In this document: piece after piece, positions 2 through 60,705 of the stretch
Layout: each line of letters begins with the position of its first letter
How positions within the stretch are numbered: the stretch's first letter is position 1
Source: Strigamia acuminata
Taxonomy: Eukaryota > Arthropoda > Chilopoda > Geophilomorpha > Linotaeniidae
Length of the DNA stretch: 64,000 bases
Direction: 5' to 3'
Assembly (NCBI GenBank): GCA_949358305.1
Contig: OX442324.1
Coordinates: forward strand, 6,917,601-6,981,600
Made by a program: the position numbers and the translations under genes
The notes under the pieces: generated by a model
The model's database searches: none
Seen by the model: only the letters and a program-made list of their open reading frames with translations
Told to the model about the DNA's origin: nothing

Positions 2-3000
2 GCAATCGCCGCAGCATCGGCGGACCGAAGCCGACGGTTAGCAGAAGCCCAGGAAGAGGAATTCCACTTAGTGAAGCGTCTTCGGTTGGAGGAACTTCAA
101 GCCCAGCAAGCTAAACATGAGTACGAAATTCTCAAACAGACTTTGGATGAGGAACGACGACTCGAGAAAGAGCAAATTGCAGCAGCAGAGGCACACCTCC
201 AATCGGAACGGCAGGCGGAAAAAGAACATCTCGAAGCTACGAGAGTCCGCTTAGAGGCGGAACGCCTGGCGTTGGCATCGAAACTAACCGAAGTGGAAAC
301 GAATGCGAACCAAGAAAACGCACATCTTCGCCAGGAAGCGTTACGCGCGCAGGAAGAAGCTCATAGAGCAAAAATGGCGCTAGAAGACGCACAGTATTTG
401 GCGCGAGTGCAATACCCGATTGCGCAGCCTGACGCAGCGAATCGGGACCCGCCAGAAGTAGTATTAGTTTCAGAGTCTGGAACGAACCCTCTGAAAAGGG
501 GGAGAGAAGGTGGGGATGAGCGTGGCGACAGAAAACGATCGTCACCTCCCATGCAGAACAGAAAAGTATTGGACGTAATTGATCAACGCAATCAACAGCG
601 TGGAGCTGCCAATCGATTTGATGAATCAAAAAGTAGTACTCTTGGACCAATGGACATTCCAAAATGGAAAAATTTGCCGAGAACAATAGATAAAGATGGC
701 AAATCACGCCCGACGGAACCATTGCATCCAAGTGAAACGTCCCAAACCGAGTGTGTCACAATTCCTGCGTCAAAACGAGAGGATAGACGTTCAGTTTATT
801 CACCAAGTGAGCCAACTGATTATTATAATAAGTTGACAAAAGTTGCTGATTTCCAAGAACGTTGGATAAATGAAATCGAGAATTGGAAATCTGAAAGATA
901 TCAAGACTCCTCAGCCAATAAAGATACTGGCAACAGCGACAGAGCTGAAAGAGAGAGGAGTGAACGTCACACATCTTGGCAAGATCAAGAAGTTCCAACG
1001 CATGAATTCTCAAGAGATAATTCACGTTCTGCAAGACAAAACCCACAGTCAGGTAATCCTGCACAGCAAGCTGAATATGAACCAACGGGTCAGAAAAGCC
1101 TGGGCGCAGGAAGTGCTAGTTACGAGAATACTAGCCGAGGAAATGACAGTCAAGGACGCGGCCAAGGTCGCCCCGACGGAGAGCGCCAGCAAAGTAACGA
1201 AAACCGTTACGAATATCGCCCAGGCGACGGAGAACGTTACGGCGGCCAACAACGTCAACAAGACGAAGATCGCCGCAACGAAGAACAACGTCGCAGAGAC
1301 GAACAGCGTCGAAAAGATGAGTACTATCGAAATGAAGAGCAGCGCCGACGCGACGAATTTTACCGCGAAGAAGAGCGACGCCGAAGAAATGATGATGCTC
1401 GCCAGCAAGGCACTCACCGAGGTGACGACCGTTACCAGAGAGACGATTCTCGTCAAAAAGATGAATATCGCCATGGTAACGACCCGCGCCACGAACAGGA
1501 GTATCGTCGCAATGACGAACAACGTCGTAGAGATGAAAAACGTCATGACGATTACTCACGATGGAGTGAAGACTATACTGGTCGACAAGAAAGGAAATAC
1601 TCGCAGTCTGAACACTTCCGCCACAATGACGCAAGTTACGCGGGTCAAACCGGAAATAGACAGGGCAGACCTGATAATTCTCAATATAGAGAACCGCCAC
1701 CTGCTGCCAATATGTACGGTCCAACAGACAACACCATTAAATTGCAGGAGTACATTGAACAGCAGATAGATAAGCGCTTGGCAAAGATTCCATCCAGATC
1801 ACAAGAGATGGAAGAGGTACTGCAAAAGCAAATCCGGAAATATTGCGTAGCAAATTGGACACATGTCTTTGTTAACGCATCCCAAATAAAATGGGACCGC
1901 ATAACACCCGACACATTTGATGGTAGTTGGTCAGTAGGAACGAAATTCCTAGATGAAGTGATGCAGATAGTGAGATGCCATGAAGCGGACCCCTACGACA
2001 CGCTTAAGAGAATAATTCCGAAGATGTTGACGGGGGGAGCCGCGAACTGGTTCTATGAACACGCGTTCACACAATGGGATGCGTTTGTTCACGAATTTAT
2101 GAAAGAGTATGGTGAGTCACATGCGACTTTGGTGGATCACTGGGACAATTTGCAACAGATGCTAGGTGAGGACCTCCGGTCGTACTTACGCAGGACGGAA
2201 GAACTGATAACTCACCTTCCAAACAAAGTTTGCAACTTTGCCGCTGATCGTCAATTTCGCAGAGGCCTGACGGAATTTTCGGAGAAGGTGCTGACAATGG
2301 TGAACGCACCGATGGCCAGCTCGTTTGACAGGTTAGCGCAGTTTATGCGCGATAACCAAATGTATATCGAAGACAGATATATAAAATATTTGCCACCCGA
2401 TGAGCAAAGAGCTCGGGATGAATTGCAACGGAAACGATCCGATCAGGCAAGGAGCAATCCTAAAATGATGCAACCACCGCCATATATCTCGGCACAACGT
2501 AAAGAGAGTAACTTTAACCGGAATAGAGATACGGGTCAGACACCCTACCCACAGCCAAAAATTCCGATGCGTCCTTCGGCAAAGTTAGTGTCAGAAGTAG
2601 ACGACAGGGGTGAATTCACGGGCAACCAAATGTTGTCAATGGACCTCACCGACCAACACATTGAGTCGATAGTGGAGGCAGTCGGCACCATGTACGCACG
2701 CAACAACCCAACAGTTGCAAAGTACAAACCGCCAATGCAACCAAAGGCGACATCTAAGTCTGAAGCGACAGAAAGTTCGACGAAAGAGTTGAAAACGTGC
2801 TCAATTGAATTGACAAAAAAGACTCCGCTTGAGGAGATAGCGCAAGCCGGGCAAGCTTCGACTTCCACTGTAAAATTGGAAGGAAACATAGAAGCGTCAA
2901 CTCAACCCAGGTTGACTCCGGAGACAGCCCCTTGTCACAATTGCGGCCAATTAGGCCATTGGTCCAGGAGCTGCCCCCAGCCCAAGAAACAAGCGTCAAA

Positions 3001-3058
3001 GCCAAGCTATCAGCGGCTAATTGACGCCATAACCGAAGCCGTTCAAAAAAACATGTGA
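2..3058 (+). CDS. gag: Gag polyprotein of E1, partial at 5' end
   Basis: The frame is open from the first bases of the window, so the true start is upstream. Residues 1-100 are a long charged heptad-like segment rich in E, R, L and A, probably a coiled coil. A low-complexity stretch of Arg/Asp/Glu repeats (about 1250-1560) follows. A retrotransposon Gag capsid-like region lies near 1900-2380, recognised by its FDGSWSVGTKFLDEV, GGAANWFYEHAF and QFRRGLTEF blocks. A single CCHC zinc knuckle (CHNCGQLGHWSRSC) at about 2935-2978 should bind genomic RNA. The frame ends in TGA at 3056-3058, directly after a slippery heptamer. Gag of about 1000 aa is longer than usual for Gypsy because of the N-terminal coiled coil and charged repeats. 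Confidence 0.92.
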   Translation, partial: AIAAASADRSRRLAEAQEEEFHLVKRLRLEELQAQQAKHEYEILKQTLDEERRLEKEQIAAAEAHLQSERQAEKEHLEATRVRLEAERLALASKLTEVETNANQENAHLRQEALRAQEEAHRAKMALEDAQYLARVQYPIAQPDAANRDPPEVVLVSESGTNPLKRGREGGDERGDRKRSSPPMQNRKVLDVIDQRNQQRGAANRFDESKSSTLGPMDIPKWKNLPRTIDKDGKSRPTEPLHPSETSQTECVTIPASKREDRRSVYSPSEPTDYYNKLTKVADFQERWINEIENWKSERYQDSSANKDTGNSDRAERERSERHTSWQDQEVPTHEFSRDNSRSARQNPQSGNPAQQAEYEPTGQKSLGAGSASYENTSRGNDSQGRGQGRPDGERQQSNENRYEYRPGDGERYGGQQRQQDEDRRNEEQRRRDEQRRKDEYYRNEEQRRRDEFYREEERRRRNDDARQQGTHRGDDRYQRDDSRQKDEYRHGNDPRHEQEYRRNDEQRRRDEKRHDDYSRWSEDYTGRQERKYSQSEHFRHNDASYAGQTGNRQGRPDNSQYREPPPAANMYGPTDNTIKLQEYIEQQIDKRLAKIPSRSQEMEEVLQKQIRKYCVANWTHVFVNASQIKWDRITPDTFDGSWSVGTKFLDEVMQIVRCHEADPYDTLKRIIPKMLTGGAANWFYEHAFTQWDAFVHEFMKEYGESHATLVDHWDNLQQMLGEDLRSYLRRTEELITHLPNKVCNFAADRQFRRGLTEFSEKVLTMVNAPMASSFDRLAQFMRDNQMYIEDRYIKYLPPDEQRARDELQRKRSDQARSNPKMMQPPPYISAQRKESNFNRNRDTGQTPYPQPKIPMRPSAKLVSEVDDRGEFTGNQMLSMDLTDQHIESIVEAVGTMYARNNPTVAKYKPPMQPKATSKSEATESSTKELKTCSIELTKKTPLEEIAQAGQASTSTVKLEGNIEASTQPRLTPETAPCHNCGQLGHWSRSCPQPKKQASKPSYQRLIDAITEAVQKNM

Positions 3059-3091
3059 GCGCGGGTTCAGAAGATTCACTGAAACCCGCGC
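3046..3091 (+). promoter_or_regulatory. -1 programmed ribosomal frameshift signal (gag to pol, E1)
   Basis: In the gag frame the codons read CAA AAA AAC ATG TGA, which places the canonical slippery heptamer A AAA AAC at 3046-3052. Six nucleotides later a perfect 9-bp stem begins: GCGCGGGTT at 3059-3067 pairs with AACCCGCGC at 3083-3091, leaving a 15-nt loop. Pol is in the -1 frame and that frame is open only from 3025, so the heptamer lies inside the short overlap. Heptamer, spacer and stem all match known -1 frameshift sites. Efficiency and any pseudoknot are not shown. Confidence 0.9.
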
Positions 3092-6000
3092 CAGCAAATG
3101 ACTCGGAAATTGCGCGAAAAAGAGAACTGGAAAAACCAACAGCTCCAGAACTTACTACAACAGTCCCAGAACCTACCCCAACTCCAGAACCAACAACGAC
3201 TTCAGAAACAAAAACTGCTCCTCCGATAAGAAAAGGATCAGTAATTTACGAAATTAGTAAGGGACAGATTATTGGCATGAAATTCCCACCTGTAGAAATG
3301 GCAGCCTTAGCTAAAATAGAAGAAATCGTAGGAATCTCAACAGCTGCGAAATCTATGGAAGCGGTCGAAGCTATAGAATCTACGGAGGCTACGGGAGCAG
3401 CAAACATTGCGGAAGCAGCAAATGCTGACGAAGTTCCATCAACATTGGAAGCTTGTGACGTAAAACCCCAAGCGCTATCACTTGATGAAATGGAACTAAC
3501 GCCTCCAGAGGCAATAGGTACCATGCAAGGAAAAGCTGACATGGAATACGACGTTAAGAAGGATTCTGACGGTATGATTTTGTTTCCAACGACTGATTTG
3601 TCGGAAGTTCCCAAAACAGAGGAAATTACGCAAATAGATGCGGCATATTTCACGGCAGAAATAGATCAAGCTCTCAAAAATGTGGGACTTGATGATGAGA
3701 ATGAAGCCACGATTTTTTGGGCAAACGTGAGAAGCACGTACGAGAATGAGCCGTCTGAAGCTGCATGGATGGTTGACACCCCGACGGAACCCGTAGAATG
3801 GGACCCATTCCTCAAGGAATTACCAATAATCGAACCCGAAGAAAAACCAAGGATTAGAGTTTTCAGAGCTCTCATTCCGGATCAAGATATGTTAAGTGGA
3901 ATGACCACAATGGAAATTTCCACGGAAAGTGGAACAATAATGGGTACACTTGATTCCGGCGCAAACCGAAGTTGTATCGCCTTACCTTTGGTCCAAGACA
4001 TGGAAATGGAAGACCAGATTTCCAGAGTGGGGCCAAACATGGCCATTAATACGGCCGACAAGAAGGTACAACCGATAGGGTCGCTACGATTGACCTTTCG
4101 CTGGTCACACGGCATAATGATACATAACTTCCTTGTCTTGCCACATGAAATGAGATTCATGCTAATGGGCAATGACATAATGAAGCGGATGCGGGTCCAA
4201 CCTAACCCACTAAATGGTAAATGGAATTTTGTGCAAACACTTGAAGTTCCTGCGCCATATATCCATCAAGAGGTACTAGACAGACTAGAAAAGAAGTTGG
4301 AGGAGCCTGAGTCCTCATGGAACACCTTTGCAAAGCGATCGAGCTTCTGTGCTTTTGAGGCCCGACTAAAAGTGGGTAATGGTGTCCATAATTTGGTCGA
4401 GGAGGCCAAGCTCCAACTAACGGAAGCCATGCAACTCGAGCATGTTCTCAAAAAATATGAGCACATCTTAACAAAGACGCCTGGGAGAACGCACGTGTTG
4501 CACCACACAATAGATCTCGACACGGATAAGCCGATAAGGGTCCCTTACAAAAGCTGGAACCCTCAAAAAAGAGAAATCCTCTCGAAACTATGCCAGGAAA
4601 TGCTAGATAAAGGCTACGTGTCCCAAGCAGAAGGAGATTACGGTGCTCGCATTGTGCTAGTCATGAAGCCAGGGTCAGAACCAAGGCTTTGCATAGACTA
4701 TAGACCAATCAACGAGCATACGTTATATGACCCTCCGCAGATGCCTACGATCGACGAGATCCTACGCGAATTAGGCGAGTTTAAGTGGGTCACGACAATT
4801 GACCTCACTAAAGGATATTGGCAGATCGAGCTGCGGCCCGAAGACCGACCAAAAACGGCCTTCTGGAGCCCGCTCGGTCGGCTGATGTTCAATGTAATGC
4901 CTTTTGGATTGGTGAACGCTCCAACAACCTTCCAAAGGCTAATCGAGAAAGTTCTTGGTGATGCCCACAGGAGATATGCCTGGGCGTACCTTGACGATAT
5001 AGTTATCGTCTCGGCCACCTATGAAGAACATCTCCGGCACGTGGAGTCAGTTTTAGATAAACTCGACAAGGCGAACCTCCACATAAATCCAGAAAAGTCT
5101 AAATTTTGCCGGAAAGAGTTAAAATTCCTTGGCTATACGCTAGGAATAAATGGACTTAGTGTGGACCCGAAAAAAGTGGCGGCCATTACACAGTTTCCAG
5201 CCCCAAAAGACCTGAAAGGCTTACAACGCTTTATGGGTATGGTAAATTTCTTCCATCGCTTATTGAAGGATTTATCTGCTGTTTCTGAGCCGTTACGTCC
5301 ACTCTTAAAAAAGGGCATAGATTTCGTATGGACTGACGACCATCAAGCGGCTTTTGAAAAAGTGAAAAGGTTATTGGCTGACGCTGTCACATTGAAGTTG
5401 CCCAACCTGAATAAGCCGTTCATAGTCCACACCGATGCCAGTTATCAGGGGTTAGGAGCTGCCCTGATGCAGCAACACGAGATTGATGGTCAAACCGTTG
5501 AGGTTCCGTGCATGTATATTAGTCGTAGCTTGCAACAAGCCGAGCTAAATTATAGTGCAACGGATTTAGAATGTCTCGCCGTGATCTGGGCCCTGCGCAA
5601 GTTTAGGCCGTACTTGGAATGCACCAAGTTTACGGTACAAACAGATCATCAGGCGTTGAAGTGGCTCATGGGACTCGACGAGCCAACGGGACGTTTAGCC
5701 CGTTGGCAGATGGAGCTCATGGGATATGACTTCAAAATTCATTACATCAAAGGCCCACTGAACGTATTGGCTGATGCGTTATCCAGAGATCCAGTCCAAC
5801 TGATCTGTGATGAGGAAGATACCGGGGAAGCTGACGGGTTTATGTCTTATTGCCCGACCAACCACCAGAAATGGACATTCAATAACTGGAACCAACTGCC
5901 AGTACCGGAAAGGCGACCAAATGAAGACGATAAGTTTGTGTCATATTGGTGCAAGGCATACAATTTAACGACGAATGAGTCGGAAGAGACGCGAGACTGT

Positions 6001-8082
6001 CAAGGCGAAGAGCCATGGCCATATGAGCCAGTGTCAGAGAATGAAATGATCAAAACATTCATTGGCAAAGTCACGTCTCAGTTGGATTGCAAACCGCCAA
6101 CGCGCCAGGAGTTCATAGATCACCAGCAGAAGGATAAACATTGTTATGGTTTAAAAAATTACTTAGAAACCGAACAATTTCCGCCATGGGTGACTACGCG
6201 ACTACAGAGGCGAAATTATAAGAAATTAGCATCGTGTCACCTTATCGAAAACGACCTACTGTTGAAATACAGCCCAACTATTTCAGACGAGTTCTCAGAT
6301 GACAATCGCGCACTGAAAGTGGTGGTCCCGAAAACATTGCGATTTCGAATACTGTGGCTTAGCCATGGACACCCATTGGCCAGCCACTGCGGCATCAGTC
6401 GGACACTATACCGGATGCGACGCATCTACTCATGGGAGGGCATGAAACCAGACGTAACAAGGTTTATCAAGCACTGCACAAGGTGCCAAGCGTGCAAGCC
6501 CCGTCCAAAGACCCAAGTAGAAGCCGCCGAAATCGGACCATACGCTCCATTTCAGTGCCTGAGCGTCGATTTGGTTGGACCACTGCCAAGAACGATAGAG
6601 GGCAATAATTATATCCTAGTGGTGTTGGATATAGCCACAAGGTGGCCTAAACTATATCCATTAGAAGACCCTACTGCGCAAACGATAGCCGATTGCATCT
6701 ACGACACCTCGATGGACTGGGGTTTTCCGGTTAAGATAATATCGGACAATGGCCCACAGTTTAAGGCGCGGTTGTATCAGGAATTTTGCAAGAAGTTCAA
6801 GATTTTTCCAAAGTTCACCTCTCCATATCATCCGCAGGCCAACCCGGTCGAGAGGTTGAACCGGGATATCAAATATTCAATCGCCCTATACACTGCAATC
6901 CACTCCAGATGGGACGAATACCTCCGCGAGATCGCATTTAGTGTACGAACAACCGACACTAGAGGACGGGGATATTCGCCAGCGTACCTTAACACAGGGA
7001 GAGAGTTCCGAATCCCATGGGATCCGCGAGTCCTCGATGGCATAATGAAGATTGACCCTCAGAAGCCGCACGAATATGTGCAAAGGCTAGAGAAAGTGAT
7101 ACGGGACACCTATCAACATATGATGGCCCATATTGTTGACTTGCGCGAACGGGTGCGAAATCACAAAGAAGACAAAAAGTTCGCTGATTTCAGAGTGAAT
7201 GATTTGGTATGGCGAGAGAGCCACGTGTTGTCGCAAGCGGCGAAGGGAATTTCCGCCAAACTTGCAGACAAAAGGATGGGTCCTTACGTTATCACGCAGA
7301 TCCACCAAGGTGGAGCCGCAAAACTGCGAAGACTGCGGGACAATAAGACATATAAGTCAATTCACATATCTGAACTATCACCATATTTCCCTGAACTCAA
7401 TCAGGAGGTATGGGTGAAAGGCCAAACTCAAAGTGACCCAAACGCTGAAGTGGTGAACACACTGCTCGATGATGAACCAGCACACGAGTCGGAAGTAGAA
7501 AAAATGTCGAAAAATACGACAAAAAAGCAAAACCGATCGACTGTAAAAAAGGGGGGAAATTTGCCAATTTCCCAAGAACAAATATCATCAAAAGATTTAC
7601 CACAACAGCAAGAAACGTCACATGACGTAGAAAATTCACAAGAAATTCCACGCGACGCCGACGAAATTCAAACACCGTCGACGATGCGAGAAACGCCACA
7701 AGACGTCGAAGGCACGTTCGACACGTGGGAAACTCAAGTGCAAGACTTGGAAAATTACGATATCGATTTTCAGCGCAATCTACAAACTTCACCAGAAAAT
7801 GAAGCAGCAGAATTGCGCGAAGAAAATTCGATTGCTAAAGAAATGGAAGCAACTCCATTATTTTTCCCGGATGAATTTATTTTGGAAACTGAAGAACAAA
7901 TAAAATCATTTTCCAAAAAGGGGGGAAGAGTGGTGGAGAAGCCGAAAATCAAAAAGAAATATTCAAATGCAGTTGATAGACACCAACAAACATCAAAACA
8001 AACTTCGTTCGAGAAGAAAAATACATCAAAATATGTATTACGAGACAGAACGAAGATAAAGACTCCAAAACGGTTCGAATAA
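3055..8082 (+). CDS. pol: Pol polyprotein of E1: protease, RT, RNase H, integrase
   Basis: The 1675-aa frame is entered by -1 frameshifting at 3046-3052 and has no credible start of its own. An acidic N-terminal linker of about 290 aa precedes an aspartic protease motif LDSGANRS near residue 299. Reverse transcriptase follows with TIDLTKGYW and the YLDD box near residue 644. RNase H has acidic residues in HTDASYQG, DLECLAV, QTDHQAL and LADALSR. Integrase has an HHCC zinc finger (HGHPLASHCG to CTRCQACK), a DDE core with D in SVDLVGPL, D in SDNGPQF and E in NPVERLNR, and a C-terminal GPY/F module (RMGPYVITQ). A charged tail of about 280 aa follows. No key residue is missing. No chromodomain was recognised. 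Confidence 0.95.
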   Translation: MSAGSEDSLKPAPANDSEIARKRELEKPTAPELTTTVPEPTPTPEPTTTSETKTAPPIRKGSVIYEISKGQIIGMKFPPVEMAALAKIEEIVGISTAAKSMEAVEAIESTEATGAANIAEAANADEVPSTLEACDVKPQALSLDEMELTPPEAIGTMQGKADMEYDVKKDSDGMILFPTTDLSEVPKTEEITQIDAAYFTAEIDQALKNVGLDDENEATIFWANVRSTYENEPSEAAWMVDTPTEPVEWDPFLKELPIIEPEEKPRIRVFRALIPDQDMLSGMTTMEISTESGTIMGTLDSGANRSCIALPLVQDMEMEDQISRVGPNMAINTADKKVQPIGSLRLTFRWSHGIMIHNFLVLPHEMRFMLMGNDIMKRMRVQPNPLNGKWNFVQTLEVPAPYIHQEVLDRLEKKLEEPESSWNTFAKRSSFCAFEARLKVGNGVHNLVEEAKLQLTEAMQLEHVLKKYEHILTKTPGRTHVLHHTIDLDTDKPIRVPYKSWNPQKREILSKLCQEMLDKGYVSQAEGDYGARIVLVMKPGSEPRLCIDYRPINEHTLYDPPQMPTIDEILRELGEFKWVTTIDLTKGYWQIELRPEDRPKTAFWSPLGRLMFNVMPFGLVNAPTTFQRLIEKVLGDAHRRYAWAYLDDIVIVSATYEEHLRHVESVLDKLDKANLHINPEKSKFCRKELKFLGYTLGINGLSVDPKKVAAITQFPAPKDLKGLQRFMGMVNFFHRLLKDLSAVSEPLRPLLKKGIDFVWTDDHQAAFEKVKRLLADAVTLKLPNLNKPFIVHTDASYQGLGAALMQQHEIDGQTVEVPCMYISRSLQQAELNYSATDLECLAVIWALRKFRPYLECTKFTVQTDHQALKWLMGLDEPTGRLARWQMELMGYDFKIHYIKGPLNVLADALSRDPVQLICDEEDTGEADGFMSYCPTNHQKWTFNNWNQLPVPERRPNEDDKFVSYWCKAYNLTTNESEETRDCQGEEPWPYEPVSENEMIKTFIGKVTSQLDCKPPTRQEFIDHQQKDKHCYGLKNYLETEQFPPWVTTRLQRRNYKKLASCHLIENDLLLKYSPTISDEFSDDNRALKVVVPKTLRFRILWLSHGHPLASHCGISRTLYRMRRIYSWEGMKPDVTRFIKHCTRCQACKPRPKTQVEAAEIGPYAPFQCLSVDLVGPLPRTIEGNNYILVVLDIATRWPKLYPLEDPTAQTIADCIYDTSMDWGFPVKIISDNGPQFKARLYQEFCKKFKIFPKFTSPYHPQANPVERLNRDIKYSIALYTAIHSRWDEYLREIAFSVRTTDTRGRGYSPAYLNTGREFRIPWDPRVLDGIMKIDPQKPHEYVQRLEKVIRDTYQHMMAHIVDLRERVRNHKEDKKFADFRVNDLVWRESHVLSQAAKGISAKLADKRMGPYVITQIHQGGAAKLRRLRDNKTYKSIHISELSPYFPELNQEVWVKGQTQSDPNAEVVNTLLDDEPAHESEVEKMSKNTTKKQNRSTVKKGGNLPISQEQISSKDLPQQQETSHDVENSQEIPRDADEIQTPSTMRETPQDVEGTFDTWETQVQDLENYDIDFQRNLQTSPENEAAELREENSIAKEMEATPLFFPDEFILETEEQIKSFSKKGGRVVEKPKIKKKYSNAVDRHQQTSKQTSFEKKNTSKYVLRDRTKIKTPKRFE

Positions 8083-9211
8083 ATATCACCAGGTGGCGCC
8101 ACTCGGAAGGCACAAACAAGCGCCCGACGTCACCAACTCACGTGATTGGAGGAGCAAGATTCAACACCAACTTGTGAATCGCAACCAAAAGTCACGATCG
8201 ATCGAAGTCAAAGAAAAGTTTGGAAAAACAACGAGAAAGCTGGTGAAAACTGTTGGATTTAAAGAAGAAAACGGCAAAAAACATCTCAACTTGTGATCAA
8301 CGCAAGAAAAGCAGCCGAGATGGCCTCAACACGCCGATCGAGGCGAGAACAAGAAGCAGAGATGGAGGAGGTATTTTTTGTATCAAATATAAGATAAAAC
8401 CAATTAGATTCCTCTCTTAACGATGTGTGAACGAGATTCCTGGATTGTTGGACTGAGAAAAGTAGTAATAAAGCGGAGAAAAGCTTTGAGAAATACATAA
8501 AGTAATTGAACGGAAACAGATCCGAAAAAATTCGAAAACATCGCTAAAAATAAATTAAAACAGCTAAAAAGGCTGTAGCAACATTTATTAAAACAATAAG
8601 AAATACTTTTTAGTGATAAAAGAAATAAAAAGTTAGTAAAAAGCACGTTTTGCGAAACACGATAATTGAAACCAAGAGCGCCATCTTGGAACCGCTATCG
8701 GAAATAAAATAACGAACTCAGTTGAATAAAACAAGGAAAATATTACACATTCGTGAGAGAGAATCTTGATTGGAAACGTTGATAAAAATGATTTCTTTCG
8801 CTGACGTGTACCACGATTATTCGCTTGAGAATTCAGAAAATAATGGAGAAATTAGTCACGCCAGACTCGAAAAGTTAACGGATAACCAATACGGAAATTG
8901 AGCCGGAAAAATTAGTGCGACTGAGCATAATAAAAAGCCAACTAAGAGCTGTAATGATTATACACTCCATAGATGATTAATTTTAAGCGAAAGAAAAGTA
9001 AAAACTAAGTTCACGAAGCGTCTCAATCCAGCGCTGACCGAGAGCGCCATCTTGTAGCAATTAATGGCGCCAAGATGTACGCAATTAAGCAAAAGAGCTA
9101 AATAAATCGGGTCACACATGGAAGAAAGAATATCTGTCAACATAAAATTAAAAATTCGACGGAAAATTAATTTTTTTTGGTTTTTATTTATCGAATATTT
9201 AGCAAGAGTGG
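8083..9211 (+). other. Non-coding spacer between pol and ORF3 of E1
   Basis: This 1.1-kb AT-rich stretch has no long ORF. It holds a GTGGCGCCAC palindrome near 8094, two copies of AGAGCGCCATCTTG (about 8676 and 9042) and a reverse copy GGCGCCAAGATG near 9065, which pairs with the second copy. A pyrimidine-rich run at 9170-9200 ends in TTTAG at 9198-9202, ten bases before the ORF3 start codon. It could serve as a 3' splice site for a subgenomic ORF3 mRNA; I see no equally clear donor in the window. Confidence 0.5.
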
Positions 9212-11716
9212 ATGTCATCATGGGACGAGCTTCCAACCACAGTTCGAGTACCATCTAACATCTTGCGAGGAAAAATCCCCGAGATAGTCCGACAAATCTT
9301 TGAAGCCCACGGCTACAGCGCTTGGAGAACACGCAAGTGGCTCTCCCAAGCTGCGACCCGAAGATGGGGCACATACAAAAAAGTGAAGCATGGATTCAAG
9401 GAGTGTTTGTGGGAGCTTGTAAAGGATTTTCTCGAAACCATTGATCCACCCGGGATGTTGTGGAGCCCACTGCTCGCGGAGGATTTCCCGCTCACTTTCG
9501 AGGAGGAAAAGGACTATGGCATTTATTTCAAGCCAGGAACAAATAAATTCCTGTTTCTGCAGGAAATACGGGAGAGATTAAAAAAGGACATGATGACGGT
9601 TGCGGCTAGATTCATGGAGGAACAACAAAAGTACCAAGAAGCTCAAACCAATGCACCGGGCAAGATCTACGTCTACAGGCCGAACCCAGCAGCCCGCACG
9701 CAATACCAAATGCATCAGTTACATATGGCGGGTGCAATCGGCCAGAATTACGCACCACAAGACCGACCACACACCACCGAGTATGGACCACTGGCTTTCG
9801 CCACTAAACCAAAACAGCCAAGGGAGCAACGAGAGTCACCATTCGGAGAAGGGACATCTCGTAGGAGTAGGAAGCGTCGTCAGATGCGTCAAGCAATTGA
9901 ACGAGAAGTAACGATGTCGCAGGATGACAAAAATAGAATTTTGATTCAGATTAAGGGAAGCGACGACCCCGACGCCCCAATCATCGCCCTCGACGAGTCT
10001 TGGCCTGACGAGCTGGTGCTTGTAGACGAAGCTTCATCCGAGAGCGAAGAAAATTATGAGACACCGGCGGAATGGTCGCCACGACGGGAAACGACCGCGT
10101 CGTCAGAGCTATGGGATACCCCAACATTGGTCCCGCCGGTCCCACCCACACCCATGGATCCACAAGAGGTGGAACCACAAGGAGCGGCAGGGACGAGCAC
10201 TGGAGCGCGACCAAAACAAACGAAGGACGTCACTACGTCGCGAAAACGTCCGCAAGAGACCGCCCAACGACCAAGTCGTGACACGTCCCAAGACAGAAAA
10301 GTGTCGTCATCAGGACGAGAAGGCCAAGAGCGATCAAGTCGACGCGAAAAATCTCGCCGCCGTAGCAGCCAGGCTCGGGCTTCAAGCAAGAGCCAAACAC
10401 GGCACTCGAGCCGATCACCATCACGACGACAGAGTCGATCACGGCCACCCAGCGAGCGAGGAAGATCGCCAGCTTGTCGGCCTAACCCTCACTTGCAACC
10501 AATGAGTGAATTTATTGCGCCGAGGAATCATGCCATTCCCGTGCCCGAGATAGCATTGTTGCCGTACGCTGACTCAATGGCGTTGCAACCATCGCCCAAT
10601 TTTGATGCGGGGTATTATCAACTGTGGGATGACGTATTGGCGAACCCACACAGGGCACAGGAAGTACTATCTGCAAGTTTGGACGCATTTCAAGCGGCGC
10701 AGATAAATGAAGCGTTAAATGAATTGAGACGTCTGGCACTGGAGTTCCGCAGGAAACCGTTGGCAGAACAAACACAAAAATGGCTGCAAAGATTCCAAAA
10801 GCAGATGATCCCCATTTTGACCAGATTGCTGTTTCCAGGGGTATTCCCAGGCGACGAATCAGCGTTTGTCGCCATGAGCATTCTTTGGACGACGCCAATG
10901 GGGATCCCCAAAGAATTAATAGAGAACTGGGAGTCTGTCCAGTATGACCCCGTCCTATTAAGGAGTATGTTGATGTGTAGGATGTTGTCCAACGGGGAGG
11001 TAGCGTCGCAAAGCGCTTCCCGACTAAGGAATGAGTGGCACCAGAGGTTGGTTGAAATCGAGGCTCACAGAGAGGCGCAAGCAACCGGGAGTCAGGTGGT
11101 AAATTGGAGACCAGCAGGAGCACCGGCGTGGCTAGCTGCCCCACCTGCCGCCCCACCAGCAGCCCCAACGGCTTCAACACGCCAGCCATCTACAGACTAC
11201 GTTCCTGCATCGGATACGGACATGTTTTATTTTCGTGCATCACCCAACGCAACATTGGTCGGGACCAAACTTCCGATTGAACCAGAGCAGTCGTCACAAC
11301 CCGAAAGTCAGGACGAGACAGTTAAGAAGGCATCGAAACCGGTCGTCGTGAGGAATGCCGAATATGGAAAAATCCGACACTTCTTCCCAAGATTGAACTT
11401 TTCCAGAGCAACTCGAGCGTTGCTAATTAATAATTCCACGCTCTGCCGAGAAGTCCACAAATGGCTGGAGAATGCAGCTAGAGAGCCGAGGAGAAAAGTT
11501 CAGCATAGACGAATCATCGCGGTCCGAAAACCACCAAGGACGGATAGAGATCGTTACGACATGCAGTACGAAGAAGTACTTCCACTAACCACGGGCATTG
11601 CACAGGTGTGGTTACACCTAAACGTTGGTATGGCGTCTGGCCCGACTCGTGGGCTCCCGAGGATTTCTGTTTCTGAACAGGAAGTTCCGGAACCCGACGT
11701 CAACGAGAGCCACTAG
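9212..11716 (+). CDS. ORF3 of E1, unrecognised 834-aa Arg/Ser-rich protein
   Basis: I do not recognise this family. The first good ATG after a pyrimidine tract is at 9212. Residues 1-150 look folded, with aromatic and charged helices (ILRGKIPEIVRQIFEAHGY). Residues 205-235 are basic, and residues 270-310 acidic. Residues 340-435 are a dense Arg/Ser segment with SRSPSRRQSRSRPPSERGRS, like splicing-factor RS domains. Residues 450-640 are helical, with an LNELRRLALEFRRKPL stretch, and are followed by Pro/Ala-rich linkers and a basic C-terminal domain. There is no signal peptide, membrane segment or furin-like site, so it does not resemble an envelope protein. It lies between pol and the 3' LTR, where accessory genes sit. 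An RNA-binding or nuclear role is inference only. Confidence 0.75.
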   Translation: MSSWDELPTTVRVPSNILRGKIPEIVRQIFEAHGYSAWRTRKWLSQAATRRWGTYKKVKHGFKECLWELVKDFLETIDPPGMLWSPLLAEDFPLTFEEEKDYGIYFKPGTNKFLFLQEIRERLKKDMMTVAARFMEEQQKYQEAQTNAPGKIYVYRPNPAARTQYQMHQLHMAGAIGQNYAPQDRPHTTEYGPLAFATKPKQPREQRESPFGEGTSRRSRKRRQMRQAIEREVTMSQDDKNRILIQIKGSDDPDAPIIALDESWPDELVLVDEASSESEENYETPAEWSPRRETTASSELWDTPTLVPPVPPTPMDPQEVEPQGAAGTSTGARPKQTKDVTTSRKRPQETAQRPSRDTSQDRKVSSSGREGQERSSRREKSRRRSSQARASSKSQTRHSSRSPSRRQSRSRPPSERGRSPACRPNPHLQPMSEFIAPRNHAIPVPEIALLPYADSMALQPSPNFDAGYYQLWDDVLANPHRAQEVLSASLDAFQAAQINEALNELRRLALEFRRKPLAEQTQKWLQRFQKQMIPILTRLLFPGVFPGDESAFVAMSILWTTPMGIPKELIENWESVQYDPVLLRSMLMCRMLSNGEVASQSASRLRNEWHQRLVEIEAHREAQATGSQVVNWRPAGAPAWLAAPPAAPPAAPTASTRQPSTDYVPASDTDMFYFRASPNATLVGTKLPIEPEQSSQPESQDETVKKASKPVVVRNAEYGKIRHFFPRLNFSRATRALLINNSTLCREVHKWLENAAREPRRKVQHRRIIAVRKPPRTDRDRYDMQYEEVLPLTTGIAQVWLHLNVGMASGPTRGLPRISVSEQEVPEPDVNESH

Positions 11717-11789: not shown

Positions 11790-13019
11790 TGTGGTGGCCT
11801 GTGGTCACCAGGGCAGGGGAAAACAGGAGTAACATTCACAGAGTTGATCTGAAGTTAATATTATTTTAGCATTTTATTATTTTAGAAGACTGAGACAATA
11901 AGTTCTTGTCTAGGGCTGGTTGCCAGGGCAACCAGACAAACAGCTGAGGGGTTGGCAGGAAGTGCTTCCTGTCAACCAGGAAGAAAATACAGATTTCTTC
12001 AGTCTAATACAAAAACCTTTGCTGAACAACACTGAAAATAATTACTCCTGGATTTCTACTGTCAAAACCGGATTAATTTGTGCCTTCAACCGAGGATTGG
12101 ACTCATTCTTGTGATACAACACATTGTGTCACGGGAATTTCATCTTGCCGTCAAGACATTGACGGAGGGATTTCATGCAACAGTCGAGCCATTCAAACTA
12201 CGTCGCGGACGCCATTTGAACCACTCGACGATCGTAACCAAGCCATTCCAACTACGTCGCCGACGCCATTGGAACCACTTGGAAGAATAGAGCGAGCCAT
12301 TCCAACTACGACAGAGTCGCCATTGGAACTACTCGTGAGGAGAGGGCCATTCGGACTACGATATCATCGCCATCCGAACTACCCGGAGAAGAAGTAAAGT
12401 TAATCCGAACTACGGTTCTACCGCCATTTGGGTTAACACGGTGCCGAAGTAACGCTGCTCGAACTACGACTCGGTCGCCATTCGAGCAAGCGTGTAGAAG
12501 AAACCGAAATTGATCGGTCAGAGATTGAAGAAACTGCGATTGAGCAGCCACAACGAGAATCATCAGTTGTTGCTGCCGAGAATCGGGAAAACTGTAAGTG
12601 AAGAATACGTTATTCGGACGAAGCAGTACGGAAACGTCGCGTCGACGGGACGAACGGAGCCGGAGACGCCATTTTTATTCCTATTTTCCATTTTCATTAA
12701 TAATTCGTTAATTTCTAGTCATTATGTATAATTTTAATAGTTTAATCATTGTAAATCGTTTTTATTAGAGAGATAACTTTATTCAAAGAGCCAGAATAAA
12801 TGAGAGAGTGTGTTTTTAAGACAGAAGTTGGTTTATTGAATCGGTTGATTTGTTCAATTGTAAAATTGGATAAATCAATTGTTGAGTTAGAATAGTTAGA
12901 AGCCTTAGTTATTTATTTGAGTTTAAAATATAAGACCCGTCGGGGCATTAAGTAATTTCCACAGCTTATTTTTGATAATTTGAGTGAGGTTTTATTAAGA
13001 ATAGGCCGGGATTACTACA
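11790..13019 (+). repeat. 3' LTR of E1
   Basis: The left end TGTGGTGG follows the polypurine tract. The right end ACTACA is nearly the inverted complement of the left end. AATAAA at 12795-12800 is a plausible poly(A) signal and TATAAT-like sequence near 12728 a possible TATA box. If so, R is very short and the hairpin array at 12183-12493 lies in U3, in the 3' UTR of the genomic RNA. The right boundary is inferred because the 5' LTR is not visible. Confidence 0.75.
12183..12493 (+). other. Array of six covarying stem-loops in the E1 LTR
   Basis: Six units repeat about every 50 nt. Each has an outer stem, a middle stem, a constant internal loop (CTA on the 5' side, CCA on the 3' side) and a 4-bp inner stem closing a 3-nt loop. 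H1 12183-12229: GTCGAG/CTCGAC, TTCAAA/TTTGAA, CGTC/GACG. H2 12238-12282: CCAAG/CTTGG, TTCCAA/TTGGAA, CGTC/GACG. H3 12293-12335: CGAG/CTCG, TTCCAA/TTGGAA, CGAC/GTCG. H4 12344-12384: GGG/CCC, TTCGGA/TCCGAA, CGAT/ATCG. H5 12399-12437: GTTAA/TTAAC, TCCGAA/TTTGGG with two G-U pairs, CGGT/ACCG. H6 12452-12493: ACGCT/AGCGT, GCTCGAA/TTCGAGC, CGAC/GTCG. Stems change on both sides together. A further hairpin CCGTCAA/TTGACGG lies just upstream near 12149. Confidence 0.85.
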
Positions 13020-13921
13020 AGTTAAGTCTGATCGCTTTCCCATCTTGGATTTAATTTGAAGTGACATTGGCATAATGTAATAACAAATAATGAATATATA
13101 TTCACTTTTTGAGCTTAGCTCATTAATTGCAGATGAGTTTGGGATGATTACACATTATAATTTGCATTCCTGCTCAATATTCTAATTTCATGCCTCTAAT
13201 TCTTGAGGATTCTAATTTAGTGTCTTGCAGGACCCAATCATTTTTCATGCTAACTTCTGAAAAAATTGATCAATTTCCATCAAATTTGGTTTATTTGATT
13301 CATTTTATGCTCCTTATATTGGGAAAAATAAACATTTGATTATATGTTGCTTATTTTTTGTGTGATTTAATTTCAAACACAACTTTTGTTTTGACAGAGG
13401 TGTGTATTCTAATTTCATGTCTTTGAGTAGTATAGTCCTTTCTAGCCTCTGCGAGAGCAGATGTCCTTCTTCCACTTGCTGTTCAACCCTTCTTCTCTCC
13501 TTGCTCTACTGCTAACGTGTGTCGCTTCCTCAACCCTTGGTTTCCAACTTCACCTCGTTACGGCCAAATTTCCTCAATGTTCATAAATCTGCCTGAGGTC
13601 AACCTTGAAGAGCGGCACCCTGCTGGAGTCTCACACAAATGCAGGCGAATGGGGCTAATGAAGCCATTACCACTCCACGTCACAAACCCACAGACTAACA
13701 GATTGAGATTGTTTCATTTGTCCTGTCATCGCAACACCAAATTCATTAAACTGTAGCACTGTGAATTTGTGAGTAACAACACACTAAATATAGCCCACTC
13801 TAAACCTGCATGGGTCGTTACAATAAACAAGACACATATACAACAATCCCCAGTCAGACATGACACAAACATCACAACAGCAACCAAAATGCATGGAGTA
13901 AATCATAAACATCCCCATGTA
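13020..13921. other. No recognisable feature
   Basis: AT-rich sequence with only short open frames, including one of 79 codons at 13517-13756 that has no family resemblance. I see no repeat ends or motifs I can name. It is probably old host intergenic or decayed repeat DNA flanking E1. Confidence 0.5.
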
Positions 13922-27836: not shown

Positions 27837-28976
27837 ATGACTAATAATCAGCATCACATGAACACCCGTGGTAAGGAAAGAACTTGTTTGACCGGTGGAA
27901 TGAATCTATCCGGGTTTATACCTGTTCCTAATGGAATTGAAGAAGTGGGAAACCACGCGGTCTATAATGGCGTTTCAAATGAAACAGCCGGACCATCTGG
28001 AGAGAATAGGGCTCCACGTGAACCTACTCCGCCTGGAGAAGAGGAATGCATTCCTGAAGGTTCTCATTTAGGCCGAGGCGGTCTATTATTTTGTCAGGAT
28101 CACGGTTTGAACCCAAACCAATTTAGATCTTTGACCGAAGTATTAGATTTTGTACACACGCGTCGTACTACGTCAGAGCAACCTAATTCCCCAGCCAGCC
28201 AAAGATTAAATAATTTTAGTCCCACTCCTTCGACGCCTATTTCTAGATATAGAAATAAAAATGCACAACCTCCTTGTCAAGATCAGTCGAATTTGACACC
28301 AGGAGCTTTTAATCGTGCTTTCCAACAACGATTACGAGCGAATAACTTCGCTCGCAACCAACAAAGAGGATTTACAAATCCAGAGAACTTTGAGAATACG
28401 TTCAACAGAGCGAATTTGGGTCCGCCTAACATGGCCAACCCTAATCCAAGTTTTCCAAACGGATCAAATAGTTGTCCGAATCTCGCTGGAAATTTGAACC
28501 CAAATTCAGGTGCGACAAGAGGTCCAAACCGCCGTTTTGACCCAAATTCTAGATTTACAAACAATTCTAGTCCAACACCTAACTTGCAAAGGGGTCACCC
28601 AGTTCCTCCAAACTCGAATAACCCAAATAATCTGAATTTTGGTAATCAAGAAAGTTCGAACAACCGTCCGAATTTTGACAATCAGGGTAATTCTTATAAT
28701 CATTCGAATTATAGGAACCAAGGCAATTCGAATAACCATTCGAACTTTGGTAACCACAGCAGGTCAAATCAAGGAGGGTCGAATAATTTCAACCCCAATA
28801 GTGGTGGCTCAAGTCAAAATAACTCGAGTCAACCAAACAATGGCGGATCGTCAAATGACAATTCGCGCCCCCCCAGTAGCTTTGGAATGACGGCTGATGA
28901 CCTCGCGTCCATTGCCACGACCATGCACAAGTTGATGCAGGCAGGAAAAAGTTCCGCCACTGTCCCTCAAAACTAA
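27837..28976 (+). CDS. gag: Gag N-terminal ORF of E2, copy 1
   Basis: 379 aa starting MTNNQHHMNTRGKERTC, which matches the start of the E3 gag. A folded-looking first 120 residues contain GGLLFCQDHGLNPNQFRSL. The rest is an Asn/Ser/Gly/Pro-rich low-complexity region with repeated NSNNHSNFGN-like units. The frame ends at TAA 28974-28976, and the capsid part continues in the +1 frame. In E3 the same regions are one ORF. So either E2 carries a one-base indel or the two parts are joined by recoding; TAA followed by C is a weak terminator context, but an indel is simpler. Confidence 0.75.
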   Translation: MTNNQHHMNTRGKERTCLTGGMNLSGFIPVPNGIEEVGNHAVYNGVSNETAGPSGENRAPREPTPPGEEECIPEGSHLGRGGLLFCQDHGLNPNQFRSLTEVLDFVHTRRTTSEQPNSPASQRLNNFSPTPSTPISRYRNKNAQPPCQDQSNLTPGAFNRAFQQRLRANNFARNQQRGFTNPENFENTFNRANLGPPNMANPNPSFPNGSNSCPNLAGNLNPNSGATRGPNRRFDPNSRFTNNSSPTPNLQRGHPVPPNSNNPNNLNFGNQESSNNRPNFDNQGNSYNHSNYRNQGNSNNHSNFGNHSRSNQGGSNNFNPNSGGSSQNNSSQPNNGGSSNDNSRPPSSFGMTADDLASIATTMHKLMQAGKSSATVPQN

Positions 28977-28980
28977 CTGT

Positions 28981-29994
28981 TTGAAGCCCCCAGACATTCC
29001 CGTATTCTCCGGAAAAGCAGAAGAAAGCGAACGCTTCCTTAACATTGTAAAAAATGTCGCTTTCCTGCGAAACATGTCACTCGATGACATGCTTGTTAAA
29101 GGCGTAGCCGGTTATCTAACCGAGCAAGCGCATGGTTGGTTTCATGAAAGGAGAGAAGATTTCATATCTTGGGAAGTATTTGAACAGGCGTTCAAAGAGC
29201 GGTTCGTAGCCACTCGACAAGAGCGGACGAACCAACTAACTAAGTTGAAACAACTGGAAACAGAAAGTCTTTACGACTTTATGCACAAATATTACCAGTT
29301 ATGGATATTACAAGACAGTCTTGATGCAAAAGGGGCTGGATGTCTTTTTATCGGGAGCGTAACTCCTGCTAATGATTTGCTTTTGCATACGCAAGGCATA
29401 GCGGATTTACCTCTGACAGAGATTTATACCGTTATAACAAAAAATAAAGGCTTGTACAGTCGTACAGCTAATAGAGCAAGGGAAAATATTTCCAATTCAG
29501 TTGTTTTCCCACCTCGGAAAACTGACACTCGTCCTCAGCCGAAGACAAATGCTAAATCTTTAACTGTGGATTCACAAGAACAACTTAATATTTGTGAGGA
29601 AGAGTTACCTGAGGAGTGCGAGGCTGTTTATTTAATAAATGGAGTAGTAGATCAGACCAGACGTGGTCAATTAGTTTGTTACCACTGTAAGAAACCAGGA
29701 CACATGCGTCGAGAATGTCCAGATTTAAAACCACGTACAAATTTCAACTCTGAAGAGTTGCAAAAACGAAGTACCCTGGATTCCCCGACTGTGGATCCTA
29801 CTTCTAAACGTCCTAATAACAGATGGATAACTCAAGAAGTGTTGGATGCAACACTAGATGCTAAACTTGATGCGAAACTTAATACTTTTGAAAACAAGTT
29901 ACAAACTTTGCTGACTAACTCGTTGGCAGAAATGGTCAAGACTTTGATCAAACCCGAATCTGCTGATTCAAGTGCGACTAGTTCAAAAAACTAG
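28981..29994 (+). CDS. gag: Gag capsid and zinc-knuckle ORF of E2, copy 1
   Basis: 337 aa in the +1 frame relative to the N-terminal ORF; this frame is open from 28936 and its first codon in the track of reading is not an ATG. The capsid-like region IPVFSGKAEESERFLNIV to ESLYDFMHKYYQLW is followed by one CCHC knuckle (CYHCKKPGHMRREC) near 29679-29720 and a short coiled C-terminus. The frame ends TCA AAA AAC TAG at 29994, with the frameshift heptamer touching the stop codon. Expected role: coat assembly and RNA packaging. Confidence 0.82.
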   Translation: MKPPDIPVFSGKAEESERFLNIVKNVAFLRNMSLDDMLVKGVAGYLTEQAHGWFHERREDFISWEVFEQAFKERFVATRQERTNQLTKLKQLETESLYDFMHKYYQLWILQDSLDAKGAGCLFIGSVTPANDLLLHTQGIADLPLTEIYTVITKNKGLYSRTANRARENISNSVVFPPRKTDTRPQPKTNAKSLTVDSQEQLNICEEELPEECEAVYLINGVVDQTRRGQLVCYHCKKPGHMRRECPDLKPRTNFNSEELQKRSTLDSPTVDPTSKRPNNRWITQEVLDATLDAKLDAKLNTFENKLQTLLTNSLAEMVKTLIKPESADSSATSSKN

Positions 29995-30025
29995 ATCCGG
30001 GGGACGAAGGTTTATTCCATCCCCC
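29985..30025 (+). promoter_or_regulatory. -1 programmed frameshift signal (gag to pol, E2 copy 1)
   Basis: A AAA AAC at 29985-29991 is read as AAA AAC and followed at once by the gag stop TAG. After a 7-nt spacer, GGGGGA (29999-30004) pairs with TCCCCC (30020-30025) around a 15-nt loop. Pol is in the -1 frame and open through this point. The stem is conserved in diverged E3 as GGGGAT/ATCCCC. Same layout as E1 with a different stem. Confidence 0.88.
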
Positions 30026-30029
30026 AGAA

Positions 30030-33000: not shown

Positions 33001-33272
33001 AATCTGCGCCCACAAAGTCTAAACATAGACATAGACAACGCTTAACTGCTATGGAGAGGAAAGCGGCGTTGAAAAGAGGCGAAGTTCCAAAGAAACCGCC
33101 TCGAAAACCCCGCAAACCCCAACCGATAGTTCCACGAACTAGCACTCGTCCACGACGAGAACGAAAACCAAATCCTAAATATGCAGATGAAAATTTCGTG
33201 CGAAACATCACTGCAGTATTTAAAAAACCTTACCAACAACGAGGAAAAGGCTCAAAGTTCTGTTGGAATTGA
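30030..33272 (+). CDS. pol: Pol of E2, copy 1: protease, RT, RNase H; integrase core missing
   Basis: 1080 aa, entered by -1 frameshift; the frame is open from the heptamer and has no ATG start. Protease motif MDTGASQCY near residue 96. RT has SIDLVKGYYQ and VYLDDVIVY near residue 440. RNase H has MTDASHEGLG near 588, ELECLAVVW, ESDAEAL and VADALSR near 710. After about 150 linker residues the protein jumps from the pre-integrase strand (DGDQMIIYF) straight to the C-terminal module (FEVGDLVWKQTH, RDGPWEIT). The HHCC finger and the DDE core, about 310-320 aa in E1, are absent, and the frame is intact across the gap. The element should make cDNA but cannot integrate it alone. Confidence 0.9.
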   Translation: MANAASESLFIDVDTVCLDIATSHSGGVEENLQEMTEQLKNLTLFPHKCYTKKFCRLRRLNRVIGGNNLHNITLGNNKDDPRMKITIGGLTYNALMDTGASQCYIGEQLLSETQALPEFLQEAPRNMMVNAVGVAHKPVGQITLCVQWADEFTPMNFIVLAKRVCGLILGHNFMRRQKISPHPHLQEFSCADKPNWSAPYESEEANLALAPLNRITFDYLGLSSTLNSIELTDTPVLTWDEKLVEESDCTPEQRLALREVVNSIPNVFRDQVGCTNVTQHRIKFKEGHSLPKMQYRMYNPAKRAIMTKLAAELEQDGLIEKAKGPFISHPVIVAKPDGSYRMCIDYRWLNAITEVEVIQMPSIDLLLHNTGPAKYFTSIDLVKGYYQVEMCEEDRPKTAFYTPNGPYQFVRMPFGLCNAPCTFQRLMEGILGSALQDYALVYLDDVIVYSDNWDDHLKHVRDVLERLNQANMTINKAKSRFGRTELKFLGHWIKPEGLFGDPDKISAIMKFPTPTCAKDIQRFHGMTNFFRKFVPNHGTIAAPYTRMMNEKTPFEWGDEQTEAFNKIKELLCGDNCLHKPDMTLPFVVMTDASHEGLGAVLCQDVDIFDEKKQKNISVPRPVAYASRVLRGAEKRYTTPELECLAVVWAIDRFKPYLEYGTFTLESDAEALKWLMRTPEPSGKFGRWALRIQCGNFKIVFRKGAANQVADALSRAPLTEEDIPLRDHVEPVEIKQYWPEWDGNPSVSLNRAPEKREYLASVRSYFSENSKECSEEKEGEEVQETLYSALTEVLKEVPPTRREIIDAQLLDTECKRIREYLLNDKVVGIPQSEIKEWKNKVKNYCLDKKEVDGDQMIIYFNPSFEVGDLVWKQTHILSCADKNISAGFAELRDGPWEITKVLPGGAYKLRKLADGSIEKSVNIKTLYPYTPSYPIENWKIGQKSASYSPQENPKWMDESNQLPEAEEMELIPETSSEIPMELSDSTSVQIDKSAPTKSKHRHRQRLTAMERKAALKRGEVPKKPPRKPRKPQPIVPRTSTRPRRERKPNPKYADENFVRNITAVFKKPYQQRGKGSKFCWN

Positions 33273-47712: not shown

Positions 47713-47716
47713 CTGT

Positions 47717-48730: not shown

Positions 48731-48761
48731 ATCCGGGGGACGAAGGTTTATTCCATCCCCC
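48721..48761 (+). promoter_or_regulatory. -1 programmed frameshift signal, E2 copy 2
   Basis: A AAA AAC at 48721-48727, 7-nt spacer, stem GGGGGA (48735-48740) with TCCCCC (48756-48761). Confidence 0.88.
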
Positions 48762-48765
48762 AGAA

Positions 48766-60206: not shown

Positions 60207-60705
60207 GAAGTTTGTTTCTTGTATTGCGAGGTGCAATAGGTGTCGTTAACGAGGCGACATTTTCGGCGGAAAGCTTTTATTAACATATCTCTGACCTTTT
60301 CAGTTTCTGCAAATAGAACCATATCATCAACATAGACTAATAGTATAGCCTGTTTATCATATGCATAAACACAATTGCAACCTTTAACCTTATCAAAACC
60401 AATTTTGTTCAGTGCTTCATCTAAAGCTTGGTACCACATTCGTCCCGATTGTTTCAAACCGTATAGCGACCTTATCAAATACCAAACTCTATTCGGATGT
60501 CGGGTTTTCACACCTTTGGGCAGTTCCATATGAATTGGATAGTCAAGTTTACCATAAAGGTAGGCGCACTTGACATCCAAATGAACATCGGTCCAACCGC
60601 GCAGAACCACCAGTAGACAGAAAAACAATCTAATTAAGACAAAATTAACTACTGGGCTAAATACCTCCTTGTAGTCAACATTGTAAATCTGTCTAAAACC
60701 CTGTG
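60207..60705 (-). pseudogene. Copia C reverse transcriptase, 3'-truncated
   Basis: After a one-base frameshift near 60702-60706 the frame shows AQGFRQIYNVDY, HLDVKCAYLYGKL, LYGLKQSGRMWYQAL and the catalytic YVDDMVLF. Homology stops after KAFRRKC near 60265; the following residues are unlike Copia. The RT end and RNase H are missing. The frame runs on into unit 2 and stops at 60176. Confidence 0.85.

Follow-up and report, generated by a model that had tools for sequence, protein, structure and literature searches.

Introduction

Retroviruses solve the export of intron-containing RNA by an RRE, an RxRE or a CTE. Their psi elements are multi-hairpin structures bound by Gag, made of tandem leader hairpins near the major splice donor, typically two to four unlike hairpins with exposed loop motifs. 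Tandem repeats near the end of an element are also known at the DNA level, since the insulator of Drosophila gypsy comprises about 12 Su(Hw) sites. The RxRE of HTLV-1 and HTLV-2 is a structured stem-loop RNA in the LTR, at U3/R or R/U5, and a spliced HTLV mRNA encodes a protein that binds RNA through an arginine-rich region (PMC3504254); the CTE is a long stem-loop with two internal loops that recruits NXF1-NXT1 (PMC7551171); and Cer1, a Ty3/gypsy element of C. elegans, needs the spliced third-ORF protein CERV for export of its unspliced genomic RNA (PMC10309623).

Retroelements with structured RNA in their leaders are well known. Our searches of open-licence papers found no description of an LTR in which near-identical hairpins stand in tandem and covary, and Rfam gave no match up to E 1 over the LTR. 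Like psi, the array is a set of tandem leader hairpins near a putative donor, but it repeats one hairpin with fixed internal loops. It resembles the gypsy insulator in having about 12 repeats in about 300-350 bp near the 5' end of the element; the insulator, however, consists of DNA sites, whereas the halves of the array covary as RNA helices. With the RxRE it shares a structured stem-loop RNA within the LTR, here in the form of an array. The RxRE is one structure of 226-254 nt (PMC3504254), whereas the arrays consist of 2-6 near-identical tandem hairpins with a putative binder, and no sequence relation is claimed. Hairpins 1-4 recall the CTE in that each has a pair of like internal loops, one rotated by 180 degrees relative to the other; the CTE is a single stem-loop of 150-175 nt (PMC7551171), whereas the array has six hairpins of 39-47 nt with 3x3 CYA/CYA loops, in an LTR. 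The host element is like Cer1 a Ty3/gypsy element with a third ORF, its splicing being predicted from sequence. Its ORF3 product has 834 aa and CERV 517 aa, its LTR measures 1,230 bp versus about 492 bp, and it has a hairpin array, whereas the passages on Cer1 name no RNA element (PMC10309623).

The host element and its genes

The window, by which we mean the whole stretch of 64,000 nucleotides analysed (G000:C12:6917601-6981600, within a genome of 237.5 Mb), contains a Ty3/gypsy element in its left part. The genome encodes 54 Chitin_bind_4 domains of cuticle proteins, which mark it as that of an arthropod, and gave one weak match to an odorant receptor. The 3' LTR (11790..13019, plus strand; 1,230 bp, TGTGG...TACTACA) is 100% identical over its 1,230 bp to the 5' LTR at G000:C12:6915761-6916990, just upstream of the window. 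As is usual for Ty3/gypsy elements, the paired LTRs run from TG to CA and a short target duplication, the direct repeat AGTT read from the sequence, flanks the element on both sides. The gag ORF (listed as 71..3058, plus strand) encodes a CCHC zinc knuckle, and its likely ATG precedes the window, in the 5' flank locus L009. The pol ORF (3055..8082, plus strand) encodes reverse transcriptase (RVT_1, 538-696), RNase H (785-891) and integrase (rve, 1163-1260), in the order of Ty3/gypsy elements. The stretch holding the array is matched at 100% in 14 places of the genome, which suggests probable recent activity of the element. Its flanks contain an inverted repeat, some 257 bases long and with 94.6% identity, at 13176-13432 and L009:59-315.

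ORF3 (9212..11716, plus strand; 834 aa) has an RS-rich middle and a conserved C-terminal part; many open copies of the family occur in the genome, with the C-terminal part conserved. A search of 5.8 billion proteins gave no match at E 0.001 among 7,989 candidates scored, 61 stretches of viral contigs fitted a pattern with 0 confirmed, and Pfam gave only weak stray matches to 14 ORF3 proteins. The predicted structure had a mean pLDDT of 57.7, with a helical part (466-625) mostly at 76-92, and matched no fold in PDB or BFVD at E <=0.001 (best 1.6 and 0.31). Rev/Rex response elements are bound by an arginine-rich adaptor that the element encodes. The RS-rich stretch would be the obvious part of ORF3 to bind RNA; it is present in the window copy, but several related families have it only in weak form (L056, L057, L059, L060, L062, L063 and L070). 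Copies L056, L057, L060 and L070 have hairpins of a second type (type 1, described below) downstream, and the region downstream of the RS-strong copy L058 (L041) shows none. The RS-rich stretch does not track the hairpins, and the link to an RS-rich ORF3 protein that the initial annotation had suggested is tentative.

An initiator-like block (TTCAGTCTAA, 11998..12007, plus strand) marks a putative transcription start near 12001; CAGTCT[AG]A was present in 15/15 aligned LTRs, and we liken the block to the arthropod initiator TCAGTY. Downstream of the array, on the same strand, lie a putative splice donor, GTAAGT (12594..12599; present in 14/15 LTRs, absent from L029), and a putative poly(A) signal, AATAAA (12795..12800; AATAAA or ATTAAA somewhere in 15/15 LTRs). 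Similarity to several distant LTR families resumes at about 12594. A polypyrimidine tract plus AG (9170..9202, plus strand) is, judging by its sequence, a putative 3' splice site before ORF3; a strong site is predicted to end at 9202, ten bases 5' of the ORF3 ATG, and a tract with the same ending precedes ORF3 of L067. With the initiator-like block upstream and the donor and AATAAA downstream, the array would lie in R, in exon 1 and in the 3' UTR of each transcript, ahead of an intron whose removal would leave ORF3. The element thus seems to express gag-pol from unspliced RNA and ORF3 from spliced RNA. Between 12594 and 12800 the donor stands upstream of AATAAA inside the LTR; foamy viruses have the same order and use U1 snRNP to silence their 5' poly(A) site (PMC3694450).

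Six tandem hairpins in the LTR

Six tandem stem-loops had been reported at 12183-12493, which is LTR position 394-704, and single-unit folding confirmed them: each unit folded alone gave the 4-bp inner stem with a 3-nt loop and the middle stem that the initial annotation had proposed. These type-2 hairpins consist of an outer stem, a CCA/CYA internal loop, a 6-bp stem, a CTA/CCA internal loop and CGNN-NNN-NNCG. Both internal loops of a hairpin are the same CYA/CYA turned round, with C-A, Y-Y and A-C mismatches, and the inner one is invariant across the six units. All units are on the plus strand: unit 1 (12183..12229) has the middle stem TTCAAA/TTTGAA, units 2 (12238..12282) and 3 (12292..12336) have TTCCAA/TTGGAA, and unit 4 (12344..12384) has TTCGGA/TCCGAA. 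Units 5 (12399..12437; an 11-bp stem with G-U pairs) and 6 (12451..12493; GCTCGAA/TTCGAGC) lack the outer CCA/CYA loop, and their stems pair straight through. G-U pairs are not confined to unit 5 as had been stated, because unit 3 has one in its outer stem. A register check against the orthologous units of related LTRs showed the differences of unit 5 to be one-sided G-U changes; both-sided change was limited there to the unit-5 inner stem and to a single pair in unit 4.

The fold of the 311-nt array had an energy of -101.4 kcal/mol (z -3.9; 0/100 shuffles equalled it). The complementary strand folded more strongly (-140.1, z -6.6), because the CYA/CYA mismatches include wobbles on the complement, so fold energy alone cannot name the strand that matters. 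Pairing was found in 88.5% of 96 cells of the six units, compared to 69.7% in shuffles (0/500 as high) and 27-44% when partners were slid by 1-3 columns. The middle and inner stems were paired in 100% of cells and the outer stem in 69%, and 12/16 pairs showed change on both sides.

Purines made up 75% of 212 linker bases of eight arrays, one L021 linker among them holding unassigned half-units, versus 46% of the window hairpins. As for coding, three sense frames across the array are open for 82-106 codons but without an ATG, and the unit spacing (54, 54, 50, 54, 54) would break any reading frame.

Covariation and conservation among related LTRs

A model built from the six window units (R1) was used on the genome loci. 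It found 2-6 units in 19/19 related loci (L010-L028) and in 1/8 further loci (L029 of L029-L036), thus in 20/27 LTR-like loci in total. Elsewhere in the window, including its other retroelements, R1 matches were weak (15.6-17.5 bits), and type-2 hairpins were found in 0/17 regions downstream of other ORF3 copies, where LTR limits are not established.

Counting identical rows once reduced 87 units to 57 from 19 sources; the set omits L001-L010 (copies of the window element), L015 (with the units of L014) and L030-L036 (without a match). In these 57 units, 85.6% of 901 cells were paired, compared to 25-45% in slides, and the middle stems reached 98.8%; the alignments (A4, A6) were fitted to the structure of the model, so the pair counts lean towards it. 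We compared them with a tree-aware null, in which the observed number of changes in each column was placed randomly on a tree from the same short units. In 300 simulations, pairing averaged 64.0% and did not exceed 73.5%, and both-sided cells, of which 145 were observed, averaged 40 with a maximum of 82. Single-pair G-tests gave p values from 0.003 to 1, some pairs being individually non-significant because the sequences are few and closely related.

Orthologous units were compared over six to eight loci, leaving out L017 (whose units are those of L016) and, as not alignable, the L012 unit under unit 2 and the extended unit 6 of L012. Among 17 non-majority pair states, 13 were standard (8 G-U and 5 others), 2 were A-C and 2 were other mismatches; two pairs had changed on both sides. 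Stems that break freely in other copies, or a lack of covariation, would have spoken against the proposed structure; neither pattern was seen. Changes in the CYA triplets of orthologous units were C/T at the middle base, and the inner CYA/CYA loop was kept in the relatives with single-base exceptions. The suggestion that compensatory change reflects selection on structure is supported by 57 units from 19 sources against the tree-aware null, and covariation beyond relatedness and composition was found for type 1 as well as type 2.

Compared to L013, L014 and L028, the array was 92.9-94.2% identical with 0 gap columns, whereas U3, the leader 5' of the array and the sequence 3' of the donor were 78.1-84.1% identical and gapped; the 100 bases 3' of the array (LTR 705-804) reached 91-93%. 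No other part of the LTR is as well conserved as the array in these three relatives, which amount to about two independent cases because L014 and L028 are close to each other. The same did not hold in L016, L018, L011 and L012. L016 and L018 are very close to the window copy; in L011, the array (89.8%, 58 gap columns) was below the following 100 bases (92.8%). The LTR of L012 looks mosaic, its 5' part being far from the window copy and its 3' part near it, and at L012:1240-1640 (minus strand) four half-units can be read by eye as a single long hairpin, nested and with CYA/CYA loops like those of the other units.

The arms of the hairpins are direct repeats, GCCA-TTCGAA-CYA. In distant families (e.g. 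L020, L022, L029), many stems pair TTCGAA with the self-complementary TTCGAA, whereas stems of the window family have diverged to TTCAAA/TTTGAA, TTCCAA/TTGGAA and TTCGGA/TCCGAA. The halves have drifted apart with pairing kept, which a double-stranded DNA site does not require. The array illustrates how directly repeated copies of a self-complementary core can give rise to a structured RNA, which afterwards diverges by compensatory change. In L020, a repeat of about 250 bases with inverted ends (about 1787-2033), probably an inserted small DNA transposon, follows the second hairpin and occurs in many other genome places.

A second type of hairpin in families sharing ORF3

Many families that share ORF3 at 36-58% identity carry another tandem hairpin, UUCUUG-stem-YGRGA (TTCTTG-variable stem-loop-stem), shortly after an initiator-like block. 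Such type-1 arrays were seen in L039 (e.g. L039:754-893), L040, L047, L048, L050, L053 and others. We built a model (R2) from 15 units. At E <=0.05, R2 matched 25/37 sources, 8 of them seed sources; sense-strand matches were found in 12/17 regions downstream of ORF3 copies, and L045 had a match on the antisense strand only. In the window, R2 matched a type-1 hairpin (UUCUUG-stem-CGGGA) just upstream of the six units (12105..12141, plus strand; 37.3 bits, E 4.8e-6), which is itself a seed of R2; no further match up to E 0.5 was found in the window. A second type-1-like hairpin with a degenerate base (12143..12170, plus strand) appeared in the minimum-energy fold and was missed by R2 up to E 0.5.

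The 15 seeds were chosen by pairing, so their own 100% pairing is no evidence. In 44 distinct units (one of them an antisense reading of another), 98.3% of cells were paired versus a null maximum of 81.2%, with 148 both-sided cells versus 42, the tree again being built from these short units. For a check free of seed choice, we searched for the two flanking boxes alone without demanding pairing. This gave 36 genome places, and the reversed pattern gave 0. Among the 13 distinct strings obtained, 8 pair at all five tested inner positions, and 55/65 inner pairs were formed (10,000 shuffles: mean 34.3, maximum 52). After the type-1 arrays of L039, L040 and L053 stands a similar pair of hairpins around GGTCGTC...GAGATCC with different stems, possibly a third type.

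Wobble pairs and the sense strand

Read in the sense direction, type-1 units had 95 G-U and 6 A-C cells, and one U-G pair was present in 43/44 units; this near-invariant wobble is a mark of RNA and of the sense strand. For type 2, G-U exceeded A-C in the middle stems (19 vs 3 cells), the outer stems (44 vs 16) and the orthologous units (8 vs 2), and the inner stems showed no G-U excess (4 vs 5). The type-2 signal is suggestive only, because the cells are non-independent and the model leans to G-U; that of type 1 is clearer. That G-U pairs are commoner than A-C pairs in the sense reading points to selection on sense RNA rather than on cruciform DNA, which had been offered as an alternative to RNA.

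Discussion

The letters of the stems change with pairing kept, and comparable rows occur in relatives; what the element requires is therefore probably the folded RNA as such. A repeated set of fixed loops, separated by helices whose sequence is free to vary, on the sense strand and apparently within R, resembles a multivalent protein-binding RNA. Our main reading, to which we give a probability of about 0.4, is that the array is a cis-acting RNA element in R, a multivalent platform most likely serving export, or escape from retention, of the unspliced RNA. If the array lies in R, every transcript would carry it near the 3' end and genomic RNA also in the 5' leader. Selection would keep the sense helices that frame the fixed CYA/CYA internal loops, and repetition would provide a multivalent platform for a protein reading these loops. 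Since the LTR donor and ORF3 appear to bound an intron, gag-pol RNA would have to leave the nucleus unspliced, which makes export or retention escape the most likely job, in the manner of the HTLV RxRE or an NXF1-binding CTE; the donor and acceptor on which a Rev/Rex-type site depends are themselves inferred from sequence. Candidate partners are a protein of the element (ORF3 or Gag) or a host export factor. The RxRE and Cer1 precedents lead us to rank export first and packaging second.

Several observations weigh against this export function. Lying 5' of the putative donor, the array alone would not distinguish unspliced from spliced RNA, and the regions downstream of other ORF3 copies have type-2 hairpins in 0/17 cases. 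Export driven by ORF3 in particular is disfavoured by the RS stretch, which does not track the hairpins, and by the lack of a recognisable fold in ORF3. More speculatively, and in our estimate doubtfully, an arthropod clade of Ty3/gypsy elements might have a Rev/Rex-like system, in which the arrays of both types in R are the response element for the element-encoded ORF3 and turn over by duplication of half-units with the loops held. On our main reading, the type-1 hairpins of related families would be an older version of the same platform.

Packaging or dimerisation is possible but rather unlikely: the row of leader hairpins would be bound by the CCHC zinc knuckle that Gag indeed carries, and genomic RNA would be gathered into particles. 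The leader position shortly 5' of gag, the tandem hairpins and the purine-rich linkers (75% vs 46%) agree with such a role. A packaging signal, however, should mark genomic and not spliced RNA, and with the array 5' of the putative donor it would also be present in spliced ORF3 RNA and at the 3' end of all transcripts. Moreover, Gag contacts are often made at apical loops, whereas the apical 3-nt loops of the array vary between units and its conserved parts are the internal loops.

We consider it improbable that a structured exon 1 with purine-rich linkers serves to control splicing, polyadenylation or translation, be it by regulating use of GTAAGT, by silencing the AATAAA of the 5' LTR in a foamy-like manner or as a ribosome entry site. 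The donor upstream of AATAAA in the LTR, as described for foamy viruses (PMC3694450), and the purine-rich linkers would suit these roles, but none of them needs six hairpins with near-identical internal loops.

A function in DNA, with 12 half-sites GCCA-TTCGAA-CYA bound by a zinc-finger protein, an insulator or extruded cruciforms, is very unlikely. There are about 12 half-units per array; GCCAT, which we liken to a YY1/Pho-like site, is present in 10/12 arms of the window units; and a further CGCCATTTT stands 3' of the donor at 12667-12675, possibly a YY1/Pho-like site too, and the leaders of several distant families contain similar GCCATTTT words. A double-stranded site, however, gives no reason for matched changes between half-units: a site bound as such should be conserved independently of its partner arm, whereas the arms covary, units 5 and 6 still pair although their 5' arms have lost GCCAT, and G-U exceeds A-C in the middle stems and in type 1.

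Least probable of all is a functionless copying artefact, in which one arm is overwritten with the sequence of the other when the template is switched in reverse transcription or DNA replication: such switching in DNA replication is reported to create and maintain RNA hairpins (PMC8794818), and the arms are direct repeats of the self-complementary core TTCGAA in many units of distant families, but such copying predicts perfect Watson-Crick arms, whereas the mismatched inner CYA/CYA loop persists in six units and, apart from single-base exceptions, in their relatives, G-U wobbles are retained (the type-1 U-G in 43/44), and the array is the slowest-changing part of the LTR in three relatives. 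The purely copying process that the initial annotation had allowed for is at odds with these retained mismatches and wobbles; template switching may well have supplied the raw material for the array.

For the question of how invertebrate LTR retrotransposons export intron-containing genomic RNA, or mark it for particles, the array offers a concrete RNA bait with a natural variant series built in, from 2 to 6 units and with two hairpin types.

Other features of the window

A set of ORFs is duplicated at 27837-39943 and 46573-58679, 18,736 bases apart; it comprises the gag-pol region of a different gypsy-type element and two ORFs of 409 and 545 aa. On the minus strand, at 60649-63609, there is a copia-like pol ORF with a C-terminal methyl-CpG binding domain (MBD, E 3.4e-10).
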